64,000 bases of DNA from the NCBI RefSeq assembly GCF_007970185.1, contig NZ_CP042431.1, forward strand, positions 2,108,001 to 2,172,000, written 5' to 3'. The position numbers and the translations under genes are program-made. Origin of the DNA: Pseudobacter ginsenosidimutans. Its GTDB lineage: Bacteria; Bacteroidota; Bacteroidia; Chitinophagales; Chitinophagaceae. The notes below the pieces were generated by a model. That model was given only the letters and a program-made list of their open reading frames with translations. It searched no databases and was not told the DNA's origin. Below are positions 1 to 61,905 of the stretch, in pieces (position 1 is the stretch's first letter; each line of letters starts with the position of its first letter).

Positions 1-2298
1 ATCGGTGATCTTCTGCACTGCAGTTACACTGTAACCGAAAAGCGCTGTGGCGTTAACGCTGAGGAATTCATCGCCATAGGTGGCAGACACTTCAAAACCG
101 GGTTTGGTGTTGAAGGTCCCGTTCTCATTTCCGTAGTAGACATAAGTAGACCCTCCCACAAGATTGGTCTGCAACATACCGAGATTAACGCCGGATGATA
201 ATGGCTCTCCCACCACAATGTCCGCATAACCATCACCGTTCATATCATAAGCATTGTCGATAGCGGTACCGAAGAGCAGGCTGAGCTGCAATGTACCGCT
301 GAACAAGCCCTGCAGCAGGTTGGAGGGCCTGGGCGATTCCAGTACCTGGTCCGCATTCGCCATGACTCCTTTGAAACCGGAAGCTTTTTGTTTGAAGAAG
401 TGTACGTTACCGGTTTTGATATTGAGAGAAAGTGCGTTTGAGAGAAGTCCACCTAACGGTGCACCCACCACGATGTTTCCATTTCTTTTTCCATCTATAC
501 CGCGCATGCCTTTCACTTTCATTCCAAAGAAGTTGGCGGCATTGCTGAGCAGGCCGGTTGAGGCAGCTTCCAGTCTTGTGCCAATGCTGCTGTTGATGCC
601 GGTCTTGTTTGTCTTACCGTAATATACATACGCAGTTCCTCCCAGGATCTGTCCATTCAGGATATTGGTAAGGCTGGAGATGTTCACGCCTGCGGGGGCG
701 CCTACCACTACATCCGGAGCGCCATCGTTATTGAAATCGCCCACGCCGTCCACGCTGAATCCGAACATCAGTCCACTGATGCCGCTGAGCAGCGGAACGT
801 TGAGGATGCCCAAGAGATTGAAACTTGGGGGATCCAGTTGCACGATGCTGGAAAATTTGTTACTGTTCTTATCGGTGAGGAAAACGAATGCACCGCCGGT
901 AGTAGTGGAAAGCAGGATGAGATCTACTTTCACAAAAGCGGGAGTACCTACGATGATGTCTTGTTTTCCATCATTGTTAAGATCTTCCGTTACAGCCACT
1001 GAAAATCCGAAGAGTGCATTTGCCTTGATGCTGATGCCGGTAACATGACTGGCATTCATATTCAGTGTAAGGAAATTGGTGGGATTGGTTGCCGCCTGGT
1101 TACCGCCTGGAAAAACATATACTTTTCCAACAGTGCCATCGATATTTCCGAGCAAGCCAAGTGATAGTTCCAGGTGATCGAGAGGCGCACCAACAACAAT
1201 ATCGTTAATGCCATCGCCTGTTACATCTCCTGCATCGATGCTCAGACCGAAGAGTGCGCCGGCCACGGCAGTATTCGGTTGCAATGTTTTGGCAGGCGTT
1301 TCGGACAGGCCGGTGGGCGTACCATAATACACGAACACAGCGCCAACGCTGGCAAGTGAATTACCATTGAGTACACCGATCAGTCCGGGTGCAGATACGG
1401 CCACATCTCCATAGCCATCATTGTTTACATCGCCCACTCCACAAACTGCATAACCATACAATGAGCTGAGGATCTGCGGCCCCGTAAGACCGAGTCCTGC
1501 GAGAAGTCCATTTGTATTGGTTTTCCAGTCAGCTGCCTTATTGATGGGATCGATGGTAACAGGATATTGTGCGCCGCTGTCATCCACTTCCAGCGTAAGG
1601 ATATTGCCTTTCAGCTTCATGGCAGCAGGAAGTGATTTGTACTGATTGTCCCACACTTTGAGATCTTCATACAACAATACAGTTTGTTGCAGACTATCTT
1701 TTGTCTGGAACTGCAGCCGGTTATTTTGCAGAACCGGTTTCAGATTACCGTCGATGGCTATGCGAATTTGTATTTTTCCTTTGCCCGATGGTTTTTGCCG
1801 GATGACAAAATTCTGACGAAGCCCTGCGTTGTTATTGGTGTATTGTACTTCTATATTATTATAGGAGTAGCGGAGCATGTCTTTGTCTGTGTGAGGTGTA
1901 CAGTAAGACCCCGGGGTCCAGAAAGAATTTTTTCTGTATGCGCCGAGAATATTGAAGTGCATTTTCCAGCCAACCTCCTGGTATTGCTCCTGCACCTGTT
2001 GAACGGTGTATCCTTTTGGGGAAATATCAAATGCCAGGCGGTTGGCGGAGTTGGCAACGCGGAAATGTTTTTGTTGAGCAGATGGATAGAATTTGTTTTC
2101 AAGTTGCTGAATGTGGTCAGCTATCTGTGCATACCAGTTGGCGCTGGCGGATGCAGGAAGCTGGTGCTTTGAAGAGCTAAGCTCAGGAATGCCATTGGCA
2201 TTGAGCTGGGTACGTGACCAGGTTGACTGGGCATAGTTTGGATCAATGGTAAGGAACGGACTAACAAGCAATACAGTGTAAAATTTCCAGAGTTTCAT
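1..2298 (-). CDS. Large secreted FG-GAP (integrin-alpha-like beta-propeller) protein, 3' end outside window
   Basis: The minus-strand frame from the ATG at 2298 stays open to the window edge (766 codons), so the C-terminus is missing. Residues 1 to about 22 form a signal peptide ending near YAQS. About 200 residues of mixed sequence follow. Then come at least six repeats of about 60-90 residues, each with a calcium-binding loop such as DVNNDGYGD, DVTGDGIND, DLNNDGKQD, DFNNDGAPD and DMNGDGYAD, followed by VVGAP or VVGEP. This is the FG-GAP repeat of integrin alpha chains and bacterial surface propellers, which bind Ca2+ and usually act in adhesion or carbohydrate binding. A tail such as a type IX secretion or gliding-motility C-terminal domain could lie beyond base 1 but cannot be seen. 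It is divergent from the AraC gene. The family call is firm; the ligand is unknown. Confidence 0.88.
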   Translation of the reverse strand, partial: MKLWKFYTVLLVSPFLTIDPNYAQSTWSRTQLNANGIPELSSSKHQLPASASANWYAQIADHIQQLENKFYPSAQQKHFRVANSANRLAFDISPKGYTVQQVQEQYQEVGWKMHFNILGAYRKNSFWTPGSYCTPHTDKDMLRYSYNNIEVQYTNNNAGLRQNFVIRQKPSGKGKIQIRIAIDGNLKPVLQNNRLQFQTKDSLQQTVLLYEDLKVWDNQYKSLPAAMKLKGNILTLEVDDSGAQYPVTIDPINKAADWKTNTNGLLAGLGLTGPQILSSLYGYAVCGVGDVNNDGYGDVAVSAPGLIGVLNGNSLASVGAVFVYYGTPTGLSETPAKTLQPNTAVAGALFGLSIDAGDVTGDGINDIVVGAPLDHLELSLGLLGNIDGTVGKVYVFPGGNQAATNPTNFLTLNMNASHVTGISIKANALFGFSVAVTEDLNNDGKQDIIVGTPAFVKVDLILLSTTTGGAFVFLTDKNSNKFSSIVQLDPPSFNLLGILNVPLLSGISGLMFGFSVDGVGDFNNDGAPDVVVGAPAGVNISSLTNILNGQILGGTAYVYYGKTNKTGINSSIGTRLEAASTGLLSNAANFFGMKVKGMRGIDGKRNGNIVVGAPLGGLLSNALSLNIKTGNVHFFKQKASGFKGVMANADQVLESPRPSNLLQGLFSGTLQLSLLFGTAIDNAYDMNGDGYADIVVGEPLSSGVNLGMLQTNLVGGSTYVYYGNENGTFNTKPGFEVSATYGDEFLSVNATALFGYSVTAVQKITD

Positions 2299-2947
2299 AG
2301 ACGGTAATTTGGTGATTGACAGGATTGTCTTTAAAAGGTGAATACTGTCAGAGCCTTGCAATACTGATCTTTCATCTCTGCCGTTCGGGCAATAAAGTAG
2401 CTGTTGCATAGGTTGAGACCTGTGCAGACGCAAGCGAATTCCTTCTTTCGAAAAAAAAGTTGCAAACAGACTAGTACAATGATGTCGCTTACTTGTTACT
2501 TAATTGAAGGGACATGCAGAGAGTCATGGATATTGAATGGATGGAGTAGTTGCTATTGGTTCTTTCTAAAGAATTGGATAATGAACAAGAAATAATCAGT
2601 GATCATTTCTGCGGTTAAAATTAATCACGAGTATTGTTTTGAGATGCCTGTAAGGATTCATAAAATACCCGTATAAGTTCAATAAACACTTAGGGTTTCT
2701 ATTTAGTCGAAATAATTATTGAGAAAGATCAACAACTAGTTGCACGACAAAAAAGTTTATCTAATTTTAGAGCTAACGATCTGGTATAATCGTTAACTCT
2801 CCACCCAAACCTTCATCCTTAGTTAATTCACTCTGGTTTTCCTGATTGTAGCCAATTAGTAAGTCTGATGTTGCCGAACATGTTGCTGATAAGTATCATT
2901 TTATATGATACTAACTGTCAGCAATAGGGTATGTATGCAATAAAAAA
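2299..2947. other. Intergenic region between divergent genes
   Basis: These 649 bases separate the divergent FG-GAP gene and the AraC regulator. They are AT-rich and hold no convincing gene: the one short open frame on the plus strand (2404-2595) has no recognisable domain or signal peptide. Promoters for both flanking genes must lie here, but I could not fix one with confidence. Confidence 0.6.
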
Positions 2948-3985
2948 ATGCCAATGTCAACCCGAACCAGTATGAGAAACTATAGAATCAAATTTCCTGC
3001 GATTGATCATGATCAAGAGTTTGAGCAACTGAGCCACGAAATGAATGGAGAGGTAGTGGCTGAGGACCTGTTGAGGGTATCCGGTCGCCTGGCTCGTGGT
3101 ATCGTGCAAAGGTGGCAACCTGAGCCGGCCTTTTCACTTCGTGCCTGGAATCTGCTTTTCCATCAGCCGGTGGAGTTTTATAAGCCCGGAACGGAAGGGG
3201 CTGATAAAACCTATACCATCATTTTTATTCTTACGCCTGAACATTGCACCTGGCAACAGATTGGTGCGCACCGTCAATACTCCAGGCCTAATACACGCAG
3301 TACACTGCTGATTGCAGACAGTGTTCCGATGGACCTGGAGATCACGCCACATTTCCCTGCTCAATGGATAGATGTAAATGTTTCTGCCTTCTGGCTGGCA
3401 CAACAGTTCCAGAAAGCAAATCTTCCATTGGAATCACTCTGGGAGAAATTAAGCGCTGATAATAAACCTCTGGTATTGATAGAACCTGCTACTGCCACAG
3501 ATAATGTAACAGTAAACGCATTGTTCGAAGCGGCCATCAACCAGAGCAGTGATCCGCAATTGATCAGGACCATCACTATCAAATTGATCAATAGTTTTCT
3601 GTTGCATGCATTGCGTCACCGGGTGCAGGGAATTCCTGCCACGCAGGATGCTCACTTTGAAAAGATCATGGAAGCGGAAGCTATCTTAAAAGCGCATTTG
3701 CAAAAAACGCTTCCCAATCTCAATGCCATTGCACAACAGGTGGCGCTGAGCGAATCCACTTTGAAGCGTCACTTCAAGAATATTTTCGGCAAGAGCGTAT
3801 ATGAATATTATCTCGACAAAAAGATGCAACTGGCCAAGAACCTGCTGTTGGAAAAACCATTGACTGTGAATGAAGCTGCTGTGATGCTGGGATATGAGAA
3901 GGTGAGCAACTTTATCGATATTTTTAAAAAGCATCACGGGATCTCTCCCGGCAGTGTAAAAAAGAAAGGGTTTCAGAGCTTATAG
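2948..3985 (+). CDS. AraC/XylS-family transcriptional regulator
   Basis: A 345-residue protein with an unrecognised N-terminal region of about 240 residues and a C-terminal AraC double helix-turn-helix. The first HTH is around LNAIAQQVALSESTLKRHF (about residues 255-275) and the second around VNEAAVMLGYEKVSNFIDIF, ending in the family's typical aromatic/HG-SPGSVKK tail. It should bind DNA as an activator or repressor; the N-terminal part probably senses a ligand or dimerises. The start could be any of three nearby ATGs (2948, 2954, 2972). It stands alone, divergent from the FG-GAP gene, which is a natural but unproven target. Confidence 0.9.
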   Translation: MPMSTRTSMRNYRIKFPAIDHDQEFEQLSHEMNGEVVAEDLLRVSGRLARGIVQRWQPEPAFSLRAWNLLFHQPVEFYKPGTEGADKTYTIIFILTPEHCTWQQIGAHRQYSRPNTRSTLLIADSVPMDLEITPHFPAQWIDVNVSAFWLAQQFQKANLPLESLWEKLSADNKPLVLIEPATATDNVTVNALFEAAINQSSDPQLIRTITIKLINSFLLHALRHRVQGIPATQDAHFEKIMEAEAILKAHLQKTLPNLNAIAQQVALSESTLKRHFKNIFGKSVYEYYLDKKMQLAKNLLLEKPLTVNEAAVMLGYEKVSNFIDIFKKHHGISPGSVKKKGFQSL

Positions 3986-4526
3986 GAATGAAATAAACAC
4001 AATTGTTTTAAAGCTTGTGTAGTTAAATAGCGGCATCCTTCAACAGGAAAAAAAAATGATCCGCCTGATTGCCTGCAATGGATTTTTCTCTAATTTTATA
4101 GGACAGTCCCTTCAGGTATCACCACACAACCAACGGGTTTTTAGCAGCTCCACACGTAAGCACATGAGTAGCTCTTCAATTGAATGAGCAATGTCTACTT
4201 CCTTTTCTGGTTAATTCTGATAGTGAAAATGATTATTGAAAAACCACAAAAACCAACAACCCCAGACTTTTTTAAACCGATAGAAGTCTCCGTACACTGA
4301 GCTTGATTGAGTGACACTATCCGGCAATGAACTACCCGGCCGCATGGATGCGGCAAGGTTAATTCTCTTATGAAAAGCCATCCCAATCTGCTACCCTACT
4401 GAATACTATTTCTGTCTGTACGACCAGCATGTGCATCTCTATGTACATTTTTTTCTTCTTCCTGCCGGCCTCCTCTTCCGGCCAGGGTTCACTGACTTCC
4501 CCATTTTACCAGGGTAATAATCTGCG
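3986..4526. other. Intergenic region upstream of the two-component operon
   Basis: About 540 bases without a supported gene. Short open frames on either strand here have no domain, signal peptide or homologous look. A short palindromic stretch around ACAATTGT follows the AraC stop, and a CCGCAT/ATGCGG hairpin lies near 4340. Neither has a clear T-run. The regulatory repeats of the downstream operon are listed separately. Confidence 0.5.
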
Positions 4527-4527
4527 T

Positions 4528-4555
4528 TTTAATTCACTTTTAATACGATATTTAC
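4528..4555 (+). promoter_or_regulatory. Direct-repeat operator candidate (TTTAAT, 11-bp period) before the response regulator
   Basis: Two perfect TTTAAT hexamers at 4528-4533 and 4539-4544 lie exactly 11 bp apart. A degenerate third (ATTTAC) follows at 4550-4555, again 11 bp on. The array sits about 60-85 bp upstream of the response regulator start. Tandem hexamers one helical turn apart are the binding pattern of OmpR/PhoB-type regulators, and the same element occurs before 6780, 7096 and 61984. I infer autoregulation. Confidence 0.55.
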
Positions 4556-4613
4556 AGCTCCGGCTGTATATAAGCCTGTTTATTTCTGATTTTTGCCGGC
4601 ATAAGTCATAACT

Positions 4614-5309
4614 ATGAATATGGATGAAGTCAAAATCTTGCTCGTAGAAGACGAAAAGAAGATTGCGGAAGCCCTCAGAAAAGGCCTGATGGAGCAACAG
4701 TACCATGTGGAAGTCGCCTACGATGGATTGATCGGTAAAAAGATGGTGGAAAGCTATAAGTTCGATCTCGTGATCCTGGACATCAACCTGCCAGGCATGA
4801 ACGGTTATGAACTTTGCAAGGAGATCCGCAAACGCGATGAAAGGATCCCGGTAGTAATGCTTACCGCCCTCAGCGCCACAGACGATAAGATCGAAGGCTT
4901 CGATGCCGGCGCCGATGATTATATCGTAAAACCCTTCGATTTCAAAGAACTGCTCGTTCGCATCCGCGCACTCCTCAAACGCATCTACCAGAACGTCCCC
5001 TCAGGCAATATGCTCAAAGTGGCCGACCTGGTGATGAACCTCGACAGTAAGGAAGTGACGCGCGCAGACAGGCCCATCTCCCTCACAGCCAAAGAATTTC
5101 AATTGCTGGAATACCTGGTCCGCAATAAGAACCGCGTTGTGAGCCGCGCAGACATCGCACTCAATGTGTGGGATATCGATTTCGATACCAAAACCAATGT
5201 GATTGATGTGTACGTGAACTTCCTGCGTAAGAAGCTCGACAGGGATTTCGATTCCAAACTCATCCATACACAGGTAGGCATGGGCTATATCCTGAAAGAA
5301 AATTCCTGA
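4614..5309 (+). CDS. OmpR/PhoB-family response regulator
   Basis: 231 residues. The receiver domain (about 5-120) has the acidic pair E12-D13, phospho-acceptor D56 in LVILDINLPG, the switch Thr in VMLTALSA and the conserved Lys in IVKPFDF. The C-terminal winged helix (about 135-230) includes LTAKEFQLLEYLVRNKN and the recognition region around TNVIDVYVNFLRKKLD. Either ATG 4614 or 4620 may be the start. It is followed after 7 bp by its kinase, so the two are an operon. Phosphorylated OmpR-type proteins bind tandem half-sites as head-to-tail dimers, which fits the TTTAAT repeats upstream of this gene and of the next two genes. The signal sensed is unknown; the CusR/CzcR-like architecture hints at envelope or metal stress but does not prove it. 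Confidence 0.93.
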   Translation: MNMDEVKILLVEDEKKIAEALRKGLMEQQYHVEVAYDGLIGKKMVESYKFDLVILDINLPGMNGYELCKEIRKRDERIPVVMLTALSATDDKIEGFDAGADDYIVKPFDFKELLVRIRALLKRIYQNVPSGNMLKVADLVMNLDSKEVTRADRPISLTAKEFQLLEYLVRNKNRVVSRADIALNVWDIDFDTKTNVIDVYVNFLRKKLDRDFDSKLIHTQVGMGYILKENS

Positions 5310-5316
5310 TTGCTGA

Positions 5317-6705
5317 TTGAAGATCAAGTATAAAATAACCGCCCTCTTTGCATTACTGGCTACTGCCATCATGTTATTAAGCAGTGTGAGTGTTTATTAC
5401 TTCACTTCCAGCGACCGCGCCGAAGCATTCAAGAGGCGCCTGAAAGGCCGCGCCAACAACAATGCACAGATCTATTCCATCTTCGGAGACAGTAGTATCA
5501 AATTACTGGCGCAGATAGATTCGGGTTCTGTAAGCACACTACCCCGCAAGAGCGTGGTGATCTTCGATTACCTGGAAAACCAGTTGTACACTTTCAATGC
5601 AACAGGTGAAACCACTCCGGAAGTTGACAAGACTGTGCTGGAGAGGGCCCGCATGGATGAGGATGTTTATTTCAAAGTGAAAGGACGTGAAGCCATCGCC
5701 TTCCATCATACAGATGCACGCAATCGCATTGTAATTGTTGTTGCTGCCTATGATGAAGACGGGTGGGCAAGGCTGGTGCAACTCCGGCATATCCTCTTTC
5801 TCGGGCTCCTGATCGGGATTGCCATTGCGCTGATCGGCGGATGGGTTTTCTCGGTACAACTGGTCAGGCCGTTATCCATGATCATACAGGAAGTAAAAGA
5901 TATTTCTTCGCAAAACCTTTCTCACAGGCTGGAAGCCGGAAGCGGCCATGATGAACTTCATCAACTGGCCAATACTTTCAACGAGCTGTTGAACCGTCTG
6001 CAGGAATCCTTCATGATACAACGCAGATTTATCTCCAATGCATCGCATGAATTGAGCACTCCGCTCACTTCCATCTCCAGTCAACTGGAAGTTACCCTGC
6101 ACAAGGACCGCAATATCGAAGAATACAAACAGGTGATGCTGAGTATCCGCGAAGACGTAAAGCAGATGCAGCAACTCACCAAAAGCCTGCTGGAAATTGC
6201 AAAGACGGGCTCACAGGGGACCATCGAACTGGTTGAAGTACGCATCGATGAAGTGATGTTCAAAGTAATGGGGGATGTACAAAAGATCAGTCCGGATTAC
6301 AAAGTGGAATTGCATTTTGAAGATATCCCTGAAGACGACAGAGAGTTCCTTGTGTTCGGCAACAGCGATCTGTTGTACAGCGCCATCAAGAACTTTGTGG
6401 AGAATGGATGTAAGTATTCGCAGGATCATACTTCATGGGTTGATCTCAGTTTTCAGAGCGGGCAGATCATCATTCGCGTGAAGAATCAGGGTGATGTGAT
6501 TGCTGAAGAAGAGATCGAACATATCTTCCAACCCTTTTACCGTACCAATTCTGCCGCTACCCGTACGAAGGGATTTGGCCTGGGGCTGGCGCTGGCCAAA
6601 AGGATCATCGGATTGCACAAAGGAGCTATCAATGTGCAGAGTGATATCGTTGCCGGCACCGTCTTCACCATCGTTTTACCCAGTATCAAAGCTTTCTCAC
6701 GTTGA
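5317..6705 (+). CDS. Membrane sensor histidine kinase, partner of the OmpR-type regulator
   Basis: 462 residues starting at a TTG codon, 7 bp after the regulator stop. Order: TM helix about 7-29, a short periplasmic domain of about 120 residues, a second TM helix about 155-178, HAMP, HisKA with the phospho-acceptor His244 in SHELSTPLTSI, then HATPase_c with the N box (FVENGCKYS) and G2 box (FGLGLALAKRI). The G1 box reads NQGDVI rather than DxGxG, so the usual ADP-contacting Asp is Asn; related Bacteroidota kinases also vary here. It should autophosphorylate on His244 and pass phosphate to Asp56 of its partner. The periplasmic domain matches no family I recognise. Confidence 0.92.
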   Translation: MKIKYKITALFALLATAIMLLSSVSVYYFTSSDRAEAFKRRLKGRANNNAQIYSIFGDSSIKLLAQIDSGSVSTLPRKSVVIFDYLENQLYTFNATGETTPEVDKTVLERARMDEDVYFKVKGREAIAFHHTDARNRIVIVVAAYDEDGWARLVQLRHILFLGLLIGIAIALIGGWVFSVQLVRPLSMIIQEVKDISSQNLSHRLEAGSGHDELHQLANTFNELLNRLQESFMIQRRFISNASHELSTPLTSISSQLEVTLHKDRNIEEYKQVMLSIREDVKQMQQLTKSLLEIAKTGSQGTIELVEVRIDEVMFKVMGDVQKISPDYKVELHFEDIPEDDREFLVFGNSDLLYSAIKNFVENGCKYSQDHTSWVDLSFQSGQIIIRVKNQGDVIAEEEIEHIFQPFYRTNSAATRTKGFGLGLALAKRIIGLHKGAINVQSDIVAGTVFTIVLPSIKAFSR

Positions 6706-6744
6706 TTTAATTCCTTTTTAATGCTGGTTTAATGCGCGTTTAAG
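6706..6744 (+). promoter_or_regulatory. Four-copy TTTAAT direct-repeat array (11-bp period)
   Basis: Hexamers start at 6706, 6717, 6728 (all TTTAAT) and 6739 (TTTAAG), each exactly 11 bp from the last. The array begins at the base after the kinase stop codon. A -7-like element (CACATTTG, 6755-6762) begins 16 bp after the start of the fourth hexamer, and the small ORF starts at 6780. The position covers the -33 region, as for an activator that contacts sigma, or a repressor. Confidence 0.65.
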
Positions 6745-6779
6745 GGGTTTAGATCACATTTGTCGACTTATAAAATGGC

Positions 6780-6992
6780 ATGAACTACCGATTGCTAATT
6801 CAGTGGATCCCTCTTTGTTGTATTATCGCTCTGTTGGTAGCTGGCGCAATGCTCAAACAAAAGAACGTTGAGCTTGCTTCAAAGCAGAAGCGATTGATGC
6901 TTCAAAATGATTCCATCCTCTCCGTAAATATTGCGCTGGAAAAACAGCTTGCAAAACTTCAAAAGTCGCTTGACAGTCTGCGTCCTCATTAG
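6780..6992 (+). CDS. Small single-pass membrane protein with coiled coil
   Basis: 70 residues: a short N-terminus, one TM helix at about 8-24 (LIQWIPLCCIIALLVAG), then a basic, heptad-like helix of about 45 residues rich in Leu, Lys and Gln. The layout resembles small bitopic proteins such as FtsL/FtsB or phage-shock-like modulators, but I see no specific family. It lies 74 bp after the sensor kinase and has its own four-copy TTTAAT array. I therefore infer it is a target, and perhaps a membrane feedback partner, of the two-component system. Coding status rests on composition and context only. Confidence 0.6.
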   Translation: MNYRLLIQWIPLCCIIALLVAGAMLKQKNVELASKQKRLMLQNDSILSVNIALEKQLAKLQKSLDSLRPH

Positions 6993-7016
6993 GGTGAAAC
7001 CCTTACTGCGTCTTAC

Positions 7017-7055
7017 TTTAATAGGCTTTTAATACACACTTAACTGGGTTTTAAT
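7017..7055 (+). promoter_or_regulatory. Four-copy TTTAAT direct-repeat array before uspA
   Basis: Hexamers start at 7017 (TTTAAT), 7028 (TTTAAT), 7039 (CTTAAC) and 7050 (TTTAAT), every 11 bp. A -7-like element TAGCTTTA (7066-7073) begins 16 bp after the start of the fourth hexamer. That is the same offset as in the array at 6706-6744. The uspA ATG is at 7096. Confidence 0.65.
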
Positions 7056-7095
7056 TACTTAAGCATAGCTTTATTTAAAGGGGAAGTCCGATAGC

Positions 7096-7941
7096 ATGAA
7101 TAAGCTGTTCAATAATATCCTGGTTCCTGTTGAATTCAGTAAACAAAGCAGCCAGGTGATCAGTCAGGCGGTAATGATCGCCAATCACTTCAGGTGTGAT
7201 CTGCACCTGGTGTATGTGGAGCATAATAGTATGGCGGATGCAGAGAAGCATCTGGTACAGGCGCTCACGGAAGGTGAGCTGGCCGATTATGAAGTGGAGA
7301 TGATGGAACTCAAGGCAGCTTTCCAGCCACAATTGGAAGATGGCCTGCAGCTCATAACGGCTATGCGCAGGGGCAGCAGGGAACAGCATGTTACTTCTTA
7401 CGCTTTACAGCACGCAATAGACCTCATAATCGTAGAAAAGCCGCGAAGCATTCTTCCCATGCGGTTTTCAAGATCTTTCAATATCAACAGGATCTCCAAG
7501 AAGACCGGCTGCCCGGTACTGACCGTAAAAGGAACGGCCAGGCTGGAAGCGATCAAAAATATCGTGTTGCCGGTGGATGCACATCTTCCATTGAGAAAAG
7601 TGATGTTTGCCAGTTACCTGGCCAGGCATTTCAATGCAAGGATCCACCTGATCGCATTGAGTGAGCCCGGAGAGGAAGACAATGTAGAGAACAAAGTATA
7701 CCTCTATAAAACTTACCAGTTACTGCGCGAGAACACCAATCTCACAGTGGAATGTCATACCGTGCATGGCGGCAATATTGCTGATACCACATTGGAGTAT
7801 GCCCGCCAGATCAACGCAGACCTGATAGTGGTGAATCCCGGCAAGGAAATGCTGTTGAGCGGGTTTGTGAACAGGCTGTTTGCCCGCCTCCTCTTCAATG
7901 AAAGCAGGATCCCGGTAATGACTGTAGCGCCCGCCCGTTAA
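7096..7941 (+). CDS. Tandem-domain universal stress protein (UspA family)
   Basis: 281 residues made of two UspA-like alpha/beta domains, about 1-145 and 150-281. Each opens with the typical strand (NILVPVEFS and NIVLPVDAH) and each closes with a strand before a PV(L/M)TV tail. The canonical ATP-binding glycine motif (GxxGx9GS) is not evident in either half, so nucleotide binding is doubtful. Tandem Usp proteins are soluble stress-tolerance factors in Bacteroidota. The gene follows the two-component system and is preceded by a four-copy TTTAAT array, so I infer control by the adjacent OmpR-type regulator. Confidence 0.88.
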   Translation: MNKLFNNILVPVEFSKQSSQVISQAVMIANHFRCDLHLVYVEHNSMADAEKHLVQALTEGELADYEVEMMELKAAFQPQLEDGLQLITAMRRGSREQHVTSYALQHAIDLIIVEKPRSILPMRFSRSFNINRISKKTGCPVLTVKGTARLEAIKNIVLPVDAHLPLRKVMFASYLARHFNARIHLIALSEPGEEDNVENKVYLYKTYQLLRENTNLTVECHTVHGGNIADTTLEYARQINADLIVVNPGKEMLLSGFVNRLFARLLFNESRIPVMTVAPAR

Positions 7942-8158: not shown

Positions 8159-8458
8159 ATGAAAACGCATGAATATCCTTACGTGAACAAACGGAAAAAG
8201 ACAATCCGTTTTGTGGTGCACAACAGTTGCGCCGACCATATTGCACTCTGCGGCAGTTTCAATCACTGGGAACATGATAAACTATTGCTGAAGCACGACA
8301 AAAAAGGGCAATGGTATATCGAGATCCCCATGCTGCCCGAGGGGAAATATCATTACAAATTCTTTATCGACGACAGGATGTGGATGGAAGACATCGAGAA
8401 TATGCACCGTGAGCCCGATGGTGTTTCGGGATGGAACAGTGTATTGATGATCGGTTGA
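8159..8458 (+). CDS. Stand-alone glycogen-binding (CBM48/AMPK-GBD-like) protein
   Basis: 99 residues that are almost only a CBM48 fold. The canonical starch/glycogen-contact signature GSFNHWE is near residues 38-44, followed by W-Y-EIPMLPEGKYHYKFFIDD and a tail NSVLMIG. In larger proteins this domain targets AMPK beta subunits, branching enzymes and isoamylases to alpha-glucans. Alone it may bind glycogen or regulate an unlinked enzyme. No glycogen enzyme is adjacent. An upstream ATG (8149) hits a stop at once, so 8159 is the start. It ends 2 bp from the convergent SDR gene. Confidence 0.85.
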   Translation: MKTHEYPYVNKRKKTIRFVVHNSCADHIALCGSFNHWEHDKLLLKHDKKGQWYIEIPMLPEGKYHYKFFIDDRMWMEDIENMHREPDGVSGWNSVLMIG

Positions 8459-61888: not shown

Positions 61889-61905
61889 TTTAATATTAGT
61901 TTAAT
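61889..61905 (+). promoter_or_regulatory. Two-copy TTTAAT repeat upstream of the M23 peptidase gene
   Basis: TTTAAT at 61889-61894 and 61900-61905 lie exactly 11 bp apart, as in the arrays near the OmpR-type regulator. They end 41 bp before a perfect TAGTTTTG (-7) at 61947-61954, which fits an activator site. Confidence 0.5.

Follow-up and report, generated by a model that had tools for sequence, protein, structure and literature searches.

The locus considered here raises the question of which protein reads two arrays of TTTAAT-like hexamers that lie between a two-component system and a universal stress protein gene in Pseudobacter ginsenosidimutans, and what the consequences of such reading would be for the genes downstream. 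The arrays are located in a 64,000-nucleotide stretch of the chromosome (contig NZ_CP042431.1, positions 2,108,001 to 2,172,000, forward strand), which was analysed as a whole and is referred to as the window. A first-pass annotation made from the letters alone had proposed that the adjacent OmpR-type system controls, through these repeats, both a small membrane protein and the universal stress protein. Few regulons have, to our knowledge, been defined for two-component systems of Bacteroidota, and the control of universal stress proteins in this phylum is poorly described; the reading developed below would tie universal stress proteins to a defined two-component system.

Genes of the locus

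The genes of the locus are encoded on the + strand. The first (4614 to 5309) encodes a 231 aa response regulator with the domains that define the OmpR/PhoB family, i.e., Pfam Response_reg (PF00072, 8e-33) and Trans_reg_C (PF00486, 5.5e-25). The nearest named relative of this regulator is found in Pseudoflavitalea rhizosphaerae (99%). Its best family models are of heavy-metal types, with PhoB ranking lower, and none reaches its cutoff: the regulator scored 238.1 bits against TIGR01387 (CusR/CopR; cutoff 279.2), 166 of the 330 bits needed against the PmrA model NF007928, and 178.5 of the 270 bits needed against NF053854, the model for PhoB of Bacteroidetes. As all of these scores fall below the curated cutoffs, assignment of the regulator as PmrA, CusR or PhoB was rejected. 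The regulator gene is followed by a gene for a 462 aa sensor histidine kinase (5317 to 6705; HAMP, HisKA and HATPase_c by Pfam), which is TIGR01386-like at 182.7 bits, below the cutoff of 292.55.

Downstream of the kinase lies a gene for a 70 aa small membrane protein (6780 to 6992), in which an N-terminal hydrophobic stretch precedes a segment with an NDS(I/L)-type motif, as seen in an alignment of 17 sequences. This protein has no match in Pfam or NCBIfam, and matches to it were found in 6 of 147 family genomes, its own genome included. A tandem universal stress protein of 281 aa, a likely target of the system, is encoded at 7096 to 7941 (Pfam Usp in two stretches, 1.7e-19). The next gene (8159 to 8458) encodes a single-domain AMPK1_CBM/CBM48 protein (Pfam AMPK1_CBM, 9.5e-11); it stays near the system in loci L053 to L060 and is divergent in L097, and no array of its own was seen, so that the protein is classed here only as a possible co-member of the system. 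At the left edge of the window, and crossing it, positions 1 to 2433 (- strand) encode a 1067-residue protein that, by eye, has repeated FG-GAP-like motifs and a C-terminal sorting-like domain. Further to the left, beyond the window (835 to 7079 in the extracted copy of this locus, L009), lies an RND efflux operon (outer-membrane factor, RND pump and membrane fusion protein) with an ArsR-type regulator alongside; these were likewise named by eye from their translations.

Two four-unit arrays and a two-unit site

Array A (6706 to 6744, + strand) starts straight after the stop codon of the kinase gene and consists of units at 6706, 6717, 6728 and 6739, which read TTTAAT, TTTAAT, TTTAAT and TTTAAG. 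Array B (7017 to 7055, + strand) has units at 7017, 7028, 7039 and 7050, reading TTTAAT, TTTAAT, CTTAAC and TTTAAT. The hexamer positions and 11-bp steps given by the first-pass annotation are thus borne out, with exact TTTAAT in six of the eight units, and so is the distance that it had claimed between the fourth unit and a -7-like element: counted from the first base of unit 4, the element starts exactly 16 bp downstream and reads CACATTTG (6755 to 6762, + strand) in array A and TAGCTTTA (7066 to 7073, + strand) in array B. Four-unit arrays are found in the place of array A in all five other genus members (L053 to L057) and beyond, and the five show CAAATTTG, CATATTTG or CATATTTA at the -7 position, at the same distance. 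Counterparts of array B occupy the same place in L053, L054, L055 and L056, where the -7 element is identical to that of the window, while no array of at least three units was found at this place in L057.

The regulator gene is itself preceded by a two-unit array, TTTAAT-N5-TTTAAT (4528 to 4544, + strand; units at 4528 and 4539), an exact match located 86 bp upstream of the regulator start that the first-pass annotation had overlooked. The site is found in the same place in L053 to L060 and in Niastella and Longitalea relatives, and precedes the regulator gene in the 15 relatives and copies that were compared. A putative -7-like element of the regulator promoter, GATTTTTG (4588 to 4595, + strand), begins 49 bp after the start of the second unit, and those regulator promoters of relatives that were inspected have GAATTTTG or GATTTTTG 47 to 49 bp downstream of the two units. 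While this site probably serves autoregulation of the regulator gene, the presence of only two units, at 47 to 49 bp from the -7-like element, suggests that the mode of action at this promoter differs from that at the four-unit promoters.

Expectation by chance and counts in the genome

The window contains two four-unit arrays (NYTAAB units, step 11) and five exact TTTAAT-N5-TTTAAT pairs; in 400 windows simulated with a first-order Markov model, the four-unit count had a mean and a maximum of 0, and the exact pair had a mean of 0.035 and a maximum of 1. By contrast, a scan of the window for pairs with two mismatches was not significant (17 pairs versus a mean of 11.1, with 10 of 100 shuffles reaching 17), and hence the case rests on the four-unit arrays. 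Across the whole genome (7.80 Mb), the exact N5 pair occurs 17 times versus 2 times for the reversed pattern. When spacers from N0 to N30 were considered together, no overall excess was seen in the genome (65 pairs versus 59 reversed); among these 65 pairs, as counted from the rows, N5 accounts for 17 and the next commonest spacing, N4, for 7.

A scan for three units gave 8 matches in the own genome, 4 of them local, versus 3 in controls, and 47 versus 13 over six genus genomes. The regulon thus looks small, and the own-genome count speaks against a wide regulon in this organism. One further exact TTTAAT-N5-TTTAAT pair in the window, at 61889 to 61905, lacks a -7-like element at the in-phase distances of 16, 27 and 38 bp; TAGTTTTG starts approximately 47 bp after its second unit, a distance that resembles the 47 to 49 bp of the regulator's own promoter. 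Another exact pair, inside the gene for the 1067-residue protein, is probably a chance occurrence.

Conservation of period and promoter distance

The regulator is present in six of six genus genomes searched, at 93 to 100% identity, and a match at 1e-90 or better was found in 41 of 147 family genomes. The neighbourhoods of 48 of the 49 hits listed were retrieved, as were those of five copies from further genus genomes. Counts of period and distance were made on 53 loci (47 of the 49 listed hits, the five further genus genomes, and L062), a set that leaves out G129 and the window's own copy, L009; array rows, the regulator alignment and the family tree were based on 53 rows from which L062, whose regulator is only 35% identical, was dropped and to which L009 was added. 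L062 carries two three-unit TYTAAY-type arrays (- strand, 5863 and 6283), and small-protein and USP-like genes are present at this locus.

Members of the genus and more distant relatives share the arrangement of a two-unit site ahead of the regulator and a four-unit array behind the kinase. Over the 53 regulator loci (634 kb), 49 four-unit windows were found at step 11, in 33 loci, versus none at steps 7 to 10 and 12 to 22; for three units, the corresponding numbers were 115 windows in 42 loci at step 11 versus at most 2 at any other step. The period is thus the 11-bp direct repeat that characterises tandem operators of the OmpR/PhoB family. The 53 loci hold 48 distinct arrays of at least four units, of which 33 have a strict YAnnTTTR element exactly 16 bp downstream of where the last unit starts and 43 a looser YAnnTT there; a strict element occurs only elsewhere within 6 to 49 bp in one array, and 14 arrays have none in that range. 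A fixed distance between box and promoter, here 16 bp in 33 of 48 arrays, is expected of class II activator sites.

Enrichment of the repeats near orthologous regulators, the absence of which the first-pass annotation had named as refuting its proposal, is present and in phase: arrays of at least three units occur at 42 of the 53 family loci and at 58 of 80 named loci. No such array was found near the regulator in 11 of the family rows and 22 of the named loci, and the site is not universal, as several array-less loci (e.g., in the Puia group) have Phe at residue 203 of the regulator. A search for the full architecture with at most one mismatch gave 81 matches (row count) in 56 of the 147 family genomes versus 10 for the reversed pattern, and a search of 296 phylum genomes with no mismatch gave 33 matches in 29 genomes versus 2 reversed.

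Anatomy of the array and its promoter

The anatomy of the unit was examined in 74 Chitinophagaceae arrays that remained after near-identical rows had been collapsed. Selection of these arrays demanded YTAA in the unit and YA..TT at the -7, so that conservation of these bases proves nothing here. Units 1 and 2 are the best conserved, with T at the first base, which selection had left free, in 69 and 74 of the 74 arrays, respectively; conservation at the first and last positions is weaker in units 3 and 4. Unit 2 is preceded by T in 71 of 74 arrays, and the spacers are otherwise without strong preference. In the -7 element, preselected for YA..TT, the two free last positions have T in 50 and G in 41 of the 74 arrays. 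Housekeeping promoters of Bacteroidota were taken as having TAnnTTTG at -7 and TTTG near -33; the absence of the -33 TTTG from the array promoters is partly built in, since the required core of unit 3 occupies its place. Leaders are mostly short, with the gene start located 28 to 60 bp after unit 4 in 94 of the 135 arrays that have a gene call.

Residue 203 of the regulator and base 2 of the repeat

Arrays near different members of this regulator family differ at base 2 of the hexamer, and this base covaries with residue 203 in the recognition helix (Phe in the window, codon at 5220 to 5222, + strand). We assigned loci as TTTAAT (up to 15% C), TCTAAT (45% C or more) or mixed (between these), with cut-offs of our own choosing, and left the 11 family rows and 22 named loci without an array of at least three units out of the comparison. 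All TTTAAT loci have Phe203 (16 of 16 in the family set and 34 of 34 among the 80 named loci), and all TCTAAT or mixed loci have Tyr203 (26 of 26 in the family set, i.e., 22 TCTAAT and 4 mixed, and 24 of 24 in the named set, 5 of them mixed). A count of single units, taken over the four-unit arrays of the 80 named loci, gives T at base 2 in 112 of 112 cases for Phe203 and C in 71 of 108 for Tyr203; outside the former count, one C-bearing unit each was seen at the Phe203 loci L095 (unit 4) and L227 (regulator promoter).

The covariation rests on few independent events, as the locus sets share genomes and the named tree implies only about two changes of the residue, at least two changes between Phe and Tyr being forced. 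In the family tree, the root of which is weak, L098 and L126 (Tyr) are placed among Phe rows, and L132, L121 and L130 (Phe) fall on the other side; among the latter three, only L132 has an array of at least three units, without a -7 element in place. Residue 206 (K/N) was also considered as the specificity residue, and was weakened as a candidate by Tyr203-Lys206 regulators that go with TCTAAT-containing arrays and by L265, where a Phe203-Asn206 regulator goes with a three-unit TTTAAT array.

In the alignment, Arg205 of the regulator corresponds to Arg222 of Mycobacterium tuberculosis PhoP, and hence Phe203 corresponds to Tyr220 of PhoP. In the crystal structure, the side chain of Tyr220 forms a hydrogen bond with C5, the second base of T4CACAGC (PMC4832192). 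Loss of the hydroxyl in Phe203 goes with T at base 2, and Tyr203 with C, so that a single regulator residue appears to set base 2 of the repeat. We regard this match between residue and base as the strongest indication that reading of the array falls to the adjacent regulator rather than to some other protein. Together with the enrichment near orthologous regulators and the mostly constant 16-bp distance, it lends good comparative support to the proposal of the first-pass annotation that the adjacent system may control the small membrane protein and the universal stress protein. The two combinations (Phe with T, Tyr with C) provide a natural pair for studying how this large regulator family reads DNA, and a rule that combines array, fixed distance and residue 203 would make targets of such regulators readable from sequence and testable.

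Proposed mechanism and alternatives

It is very probable, in our judgement, that the arrays are operators of the regulator encoded at 4614 to 5309, i.e., that this regulator uses these sites. Each hexamer would be read by one winged-helix domain, and two head-to-tail regulator dimers would fill the four sites; since the units repeat once per helical turn, the dimers would be aligned on one face of the DNA. The array ends 10 bp upstream of the Bacteroidota -7 element, with units 3 and 4 over the expected -33 region, and the bound regulator would, given this placement, probably recruit RNA polymerase and stand in for a -33 box that is not evident (class II activation, as with PhoB). Presumably phosphorylated in response to a stress signal, the regulator would switch on the genes for the small membrane protein and the universal stress protein, act in trans on a GT2/HAD gene (glucosyl-3-phosphoglycerate synthase/HAD phosphatase-like, see below) and, via the two-unit site, exert feedback on the promoter of its own gene.

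Binding of a different OmpR/PhoB-family regulator to the arrays, with the two systems merely coupled, is conceivable in a genome that encodes at least four close regulators and in a family where a single letter separates the sites of related members; an example would be the paralog at G000:5464914 (66% identity). This paralog has Tyr203, however, and adjoins its own divergent TCTAAT array, while the clade of the regulator studied here combines Phe203 with TTTAAT, and in 15 relatives and copies the two-unit site also precedes this regulator's own gene; we thus consider the involvement of another regulator unlikely. Equally little probability is given to the idea that the four sites repress, with the regulator covering the -33 region and blocking polymerase. 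An array that ends only 10 bp before the -7 is indeed where a bound protein could block, but base-pair-exact spacing before unrelated genes fits contact with polymerase better, and the comparable box position in E. coli Pho-box promoters is activating, although neither point is a direct test.

The repeats might also act without a dedicated protein, as phased AT-rich tracts that bend the DNA or as an UP-like element, given that the TTTAA units are AT-rich, that steps of 11 bp are in helical phase and that the array abuts the promoter. This explanation appears very improbable in light of the T-to-C change at one position that tracks one residue of the neighbouring regulator, the lack of strong preference in the spacers (except at the last base before unit 2), and the TpA step contained in each unit, as curved A-tracts avoid TpA steps. 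A chance or low-complexity origin could draw on two-unit matches, which are not rare at two mismatches (17 versus 11.1 expected), but it is refuted, and left with next to no probability, by the complete lack of four-unit arrays both in the simulated windows and at other steps in the 634 kb, and by the conservation of the arrays at orthologous places.

Paralogous regulators in the same genomes (approximately 66% identity) are accompanied by arrays of TCTAAT type in opposite orientation. The divergent TCTAAT array of the paralog (G000:C1:5464798, - strand; L063, L116 and L120) precedes the gene for a 540-residue TPR protein, a designation based on Pfam for the L116 copy only, and the neighbouring gene encodes, by eye, an FtsE-type ABC ATPase.

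Probable target genes and a site in trans

The target survey covered 192 loci, of which 114 have at least one array with a -7 element, and yielded 147 distinct arrays, including 21 with an ill-fitting fourth unit and 12 without a gene call. Among the 147 arrays, 39 precede proteins of one sequence cluster labelled USP, 23 stand ahead of the small membrane protein or one related to it, and another 15 precede a cluster of GT2 plus HAD-phosphatase proteins. The GT2/HAD protein looks like a fused glucosyl-3-phosphoglycerate synthase/phosphatase, with a score of 183.9 bits against the GpgS model that is below the cutoff of 262.

In the own genome, the GT2/HAD gene is located outside the gene cluster of the system and encodes a protein 58% identical to the array-preceded protein of L229. 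An array (G000:485038; TTTAAT, TTTAAT, TTTAAC) lies ahead of it, approximately 220 bp upstream of the GT2 domain, with CATATTAC in the -7 place, and it recurs in six of six genus genomes, each time with a degenerate fourth unit and with CATATTAC in phase. This is the only one of the 13 exact-pair sites outside the three local arrays that has an in-phase -7-like element; the other 12 have no YAnnTT at 16, 27 or 38 bp after the second unit. Elsewhere in the family, arrays stand ahead of genes for a trehalose-phosphate synthase/phosphatase (L108, where the -7 is poor), for a ribosome hibernation factor (L128), for an OmpA-domain protein (L252) and for a TPR protein (L116). The families of these array-preceded genes point to a putative regulon of stress and compatible-solute genes. 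A protein at L281 that had been named USP by eye was rejected, as it has no match in Pfam or NCBIfam.

Relation to known operators

Direct repeats with an 11-bp period are usual in this regulator family, as in PhoP and KdpE, and the kind of operator is already known. The PmrA/BasR box of Enterobacteria, (C/T)TTAA(G/T)-N5-(C/T)TTAA(G/T), is nearly the same in hexamer and spacing but has two units. Bacillus subtilis PhoP binds four TTAACA-like repeats, and the E. coli Pho box ends 10 bp before the -10; these systems resemble the present one in their four-repeat arrays and in box position relative to the promoter, but serve phosphate regulons with other sigma factors and regulators of other subfamilies.

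The E. coli KdpE site is TTTATA-N5-TTTACA (PMC3264566) and the M. tuberculosis PhoP operator is a direct repeat of TCACAGC with a 4-bp spacer and an 11-bp period (PMC4832192). The former shares with the present arrays AT-rich 6-bp direct repeats 5 bp apart and an OmpR/PhoB-family regulator, and the form is thus not new outside the phylum; KdpE differs in that it has two units, at a K+ pump operon with an E. coli promoter. The latter shares the period and head-to-tail reading, with the aligned Tyr220 reading base 2 as C, but has two units of another sequence, whereas here up to four TYTAAT units are locked to the Bacteroidota -7 and Phe replaces Tyr. The first-pass annotation knew of no described operator of this form in Bacteroidota, and none appeared among the papers listed in searches of an open-access library. 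The four-unit form 16 bp from the Bacteroidota -7, its spread, its association with universal stress proteins and the switch between Phe and Tyr, as read from the genomes compared, appear new to us.

Arrays with other hexamers in the phylum

The phylum search also returned four-unit CTTAAC arrays (L292 to L299 and L301) with, as the search pattern demanded, an 11-bp step and 16 bp to the -7. The four downstream proteins tested were PstS (L292), Porin_O_P (L295 and L299) and a TonB plug protein (L297), based on which these arrays are probably Pho boxes of Bacteroidota. TTTAAG-like arrays of the same form precede genes for a CusA/CzcA-type RND pump (L279, with L276 and L277 assigned by sequence clustering only) and, at L280, a heavy-metal-type response regulator; they may represent metal-efflux operators. 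A related TYTAAT array in another part of the phylum precedes a gene for an outer-membrane efflux protein.

With only seven downstream proteins identified, this wider picture is a lead. It would be consistent with four 11-bp repeats placed 16 bp from YAnnTTTR being a layout of activator site and promoter that OmpR/PhoB-family regulators use generally across Bacteroidota, with the hexamer as the main difference between branches (TTTAAT/TCTAAT for stress, CTTAAC for phosphate, TTTAAG for metal efflux), with the Phe/Tyr switch setting base 2 in the stress branch, and with a small Chitinophagaceae stress regulon that includes universal stress proteins, trehalose and glucosylglycerate synthesis, and ribosome hibernation; we put this generalisation forward tentatively, with doubt slightly outweighing belief. 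Units resembling GTTAAC or GGTAAT, with the same spacing to the -7, were also seen in the search of family genomes, at G009:C3:270648, G041:C1:65368, G042:C4:16689, G044:C182:6317 and G109:C10:2046.
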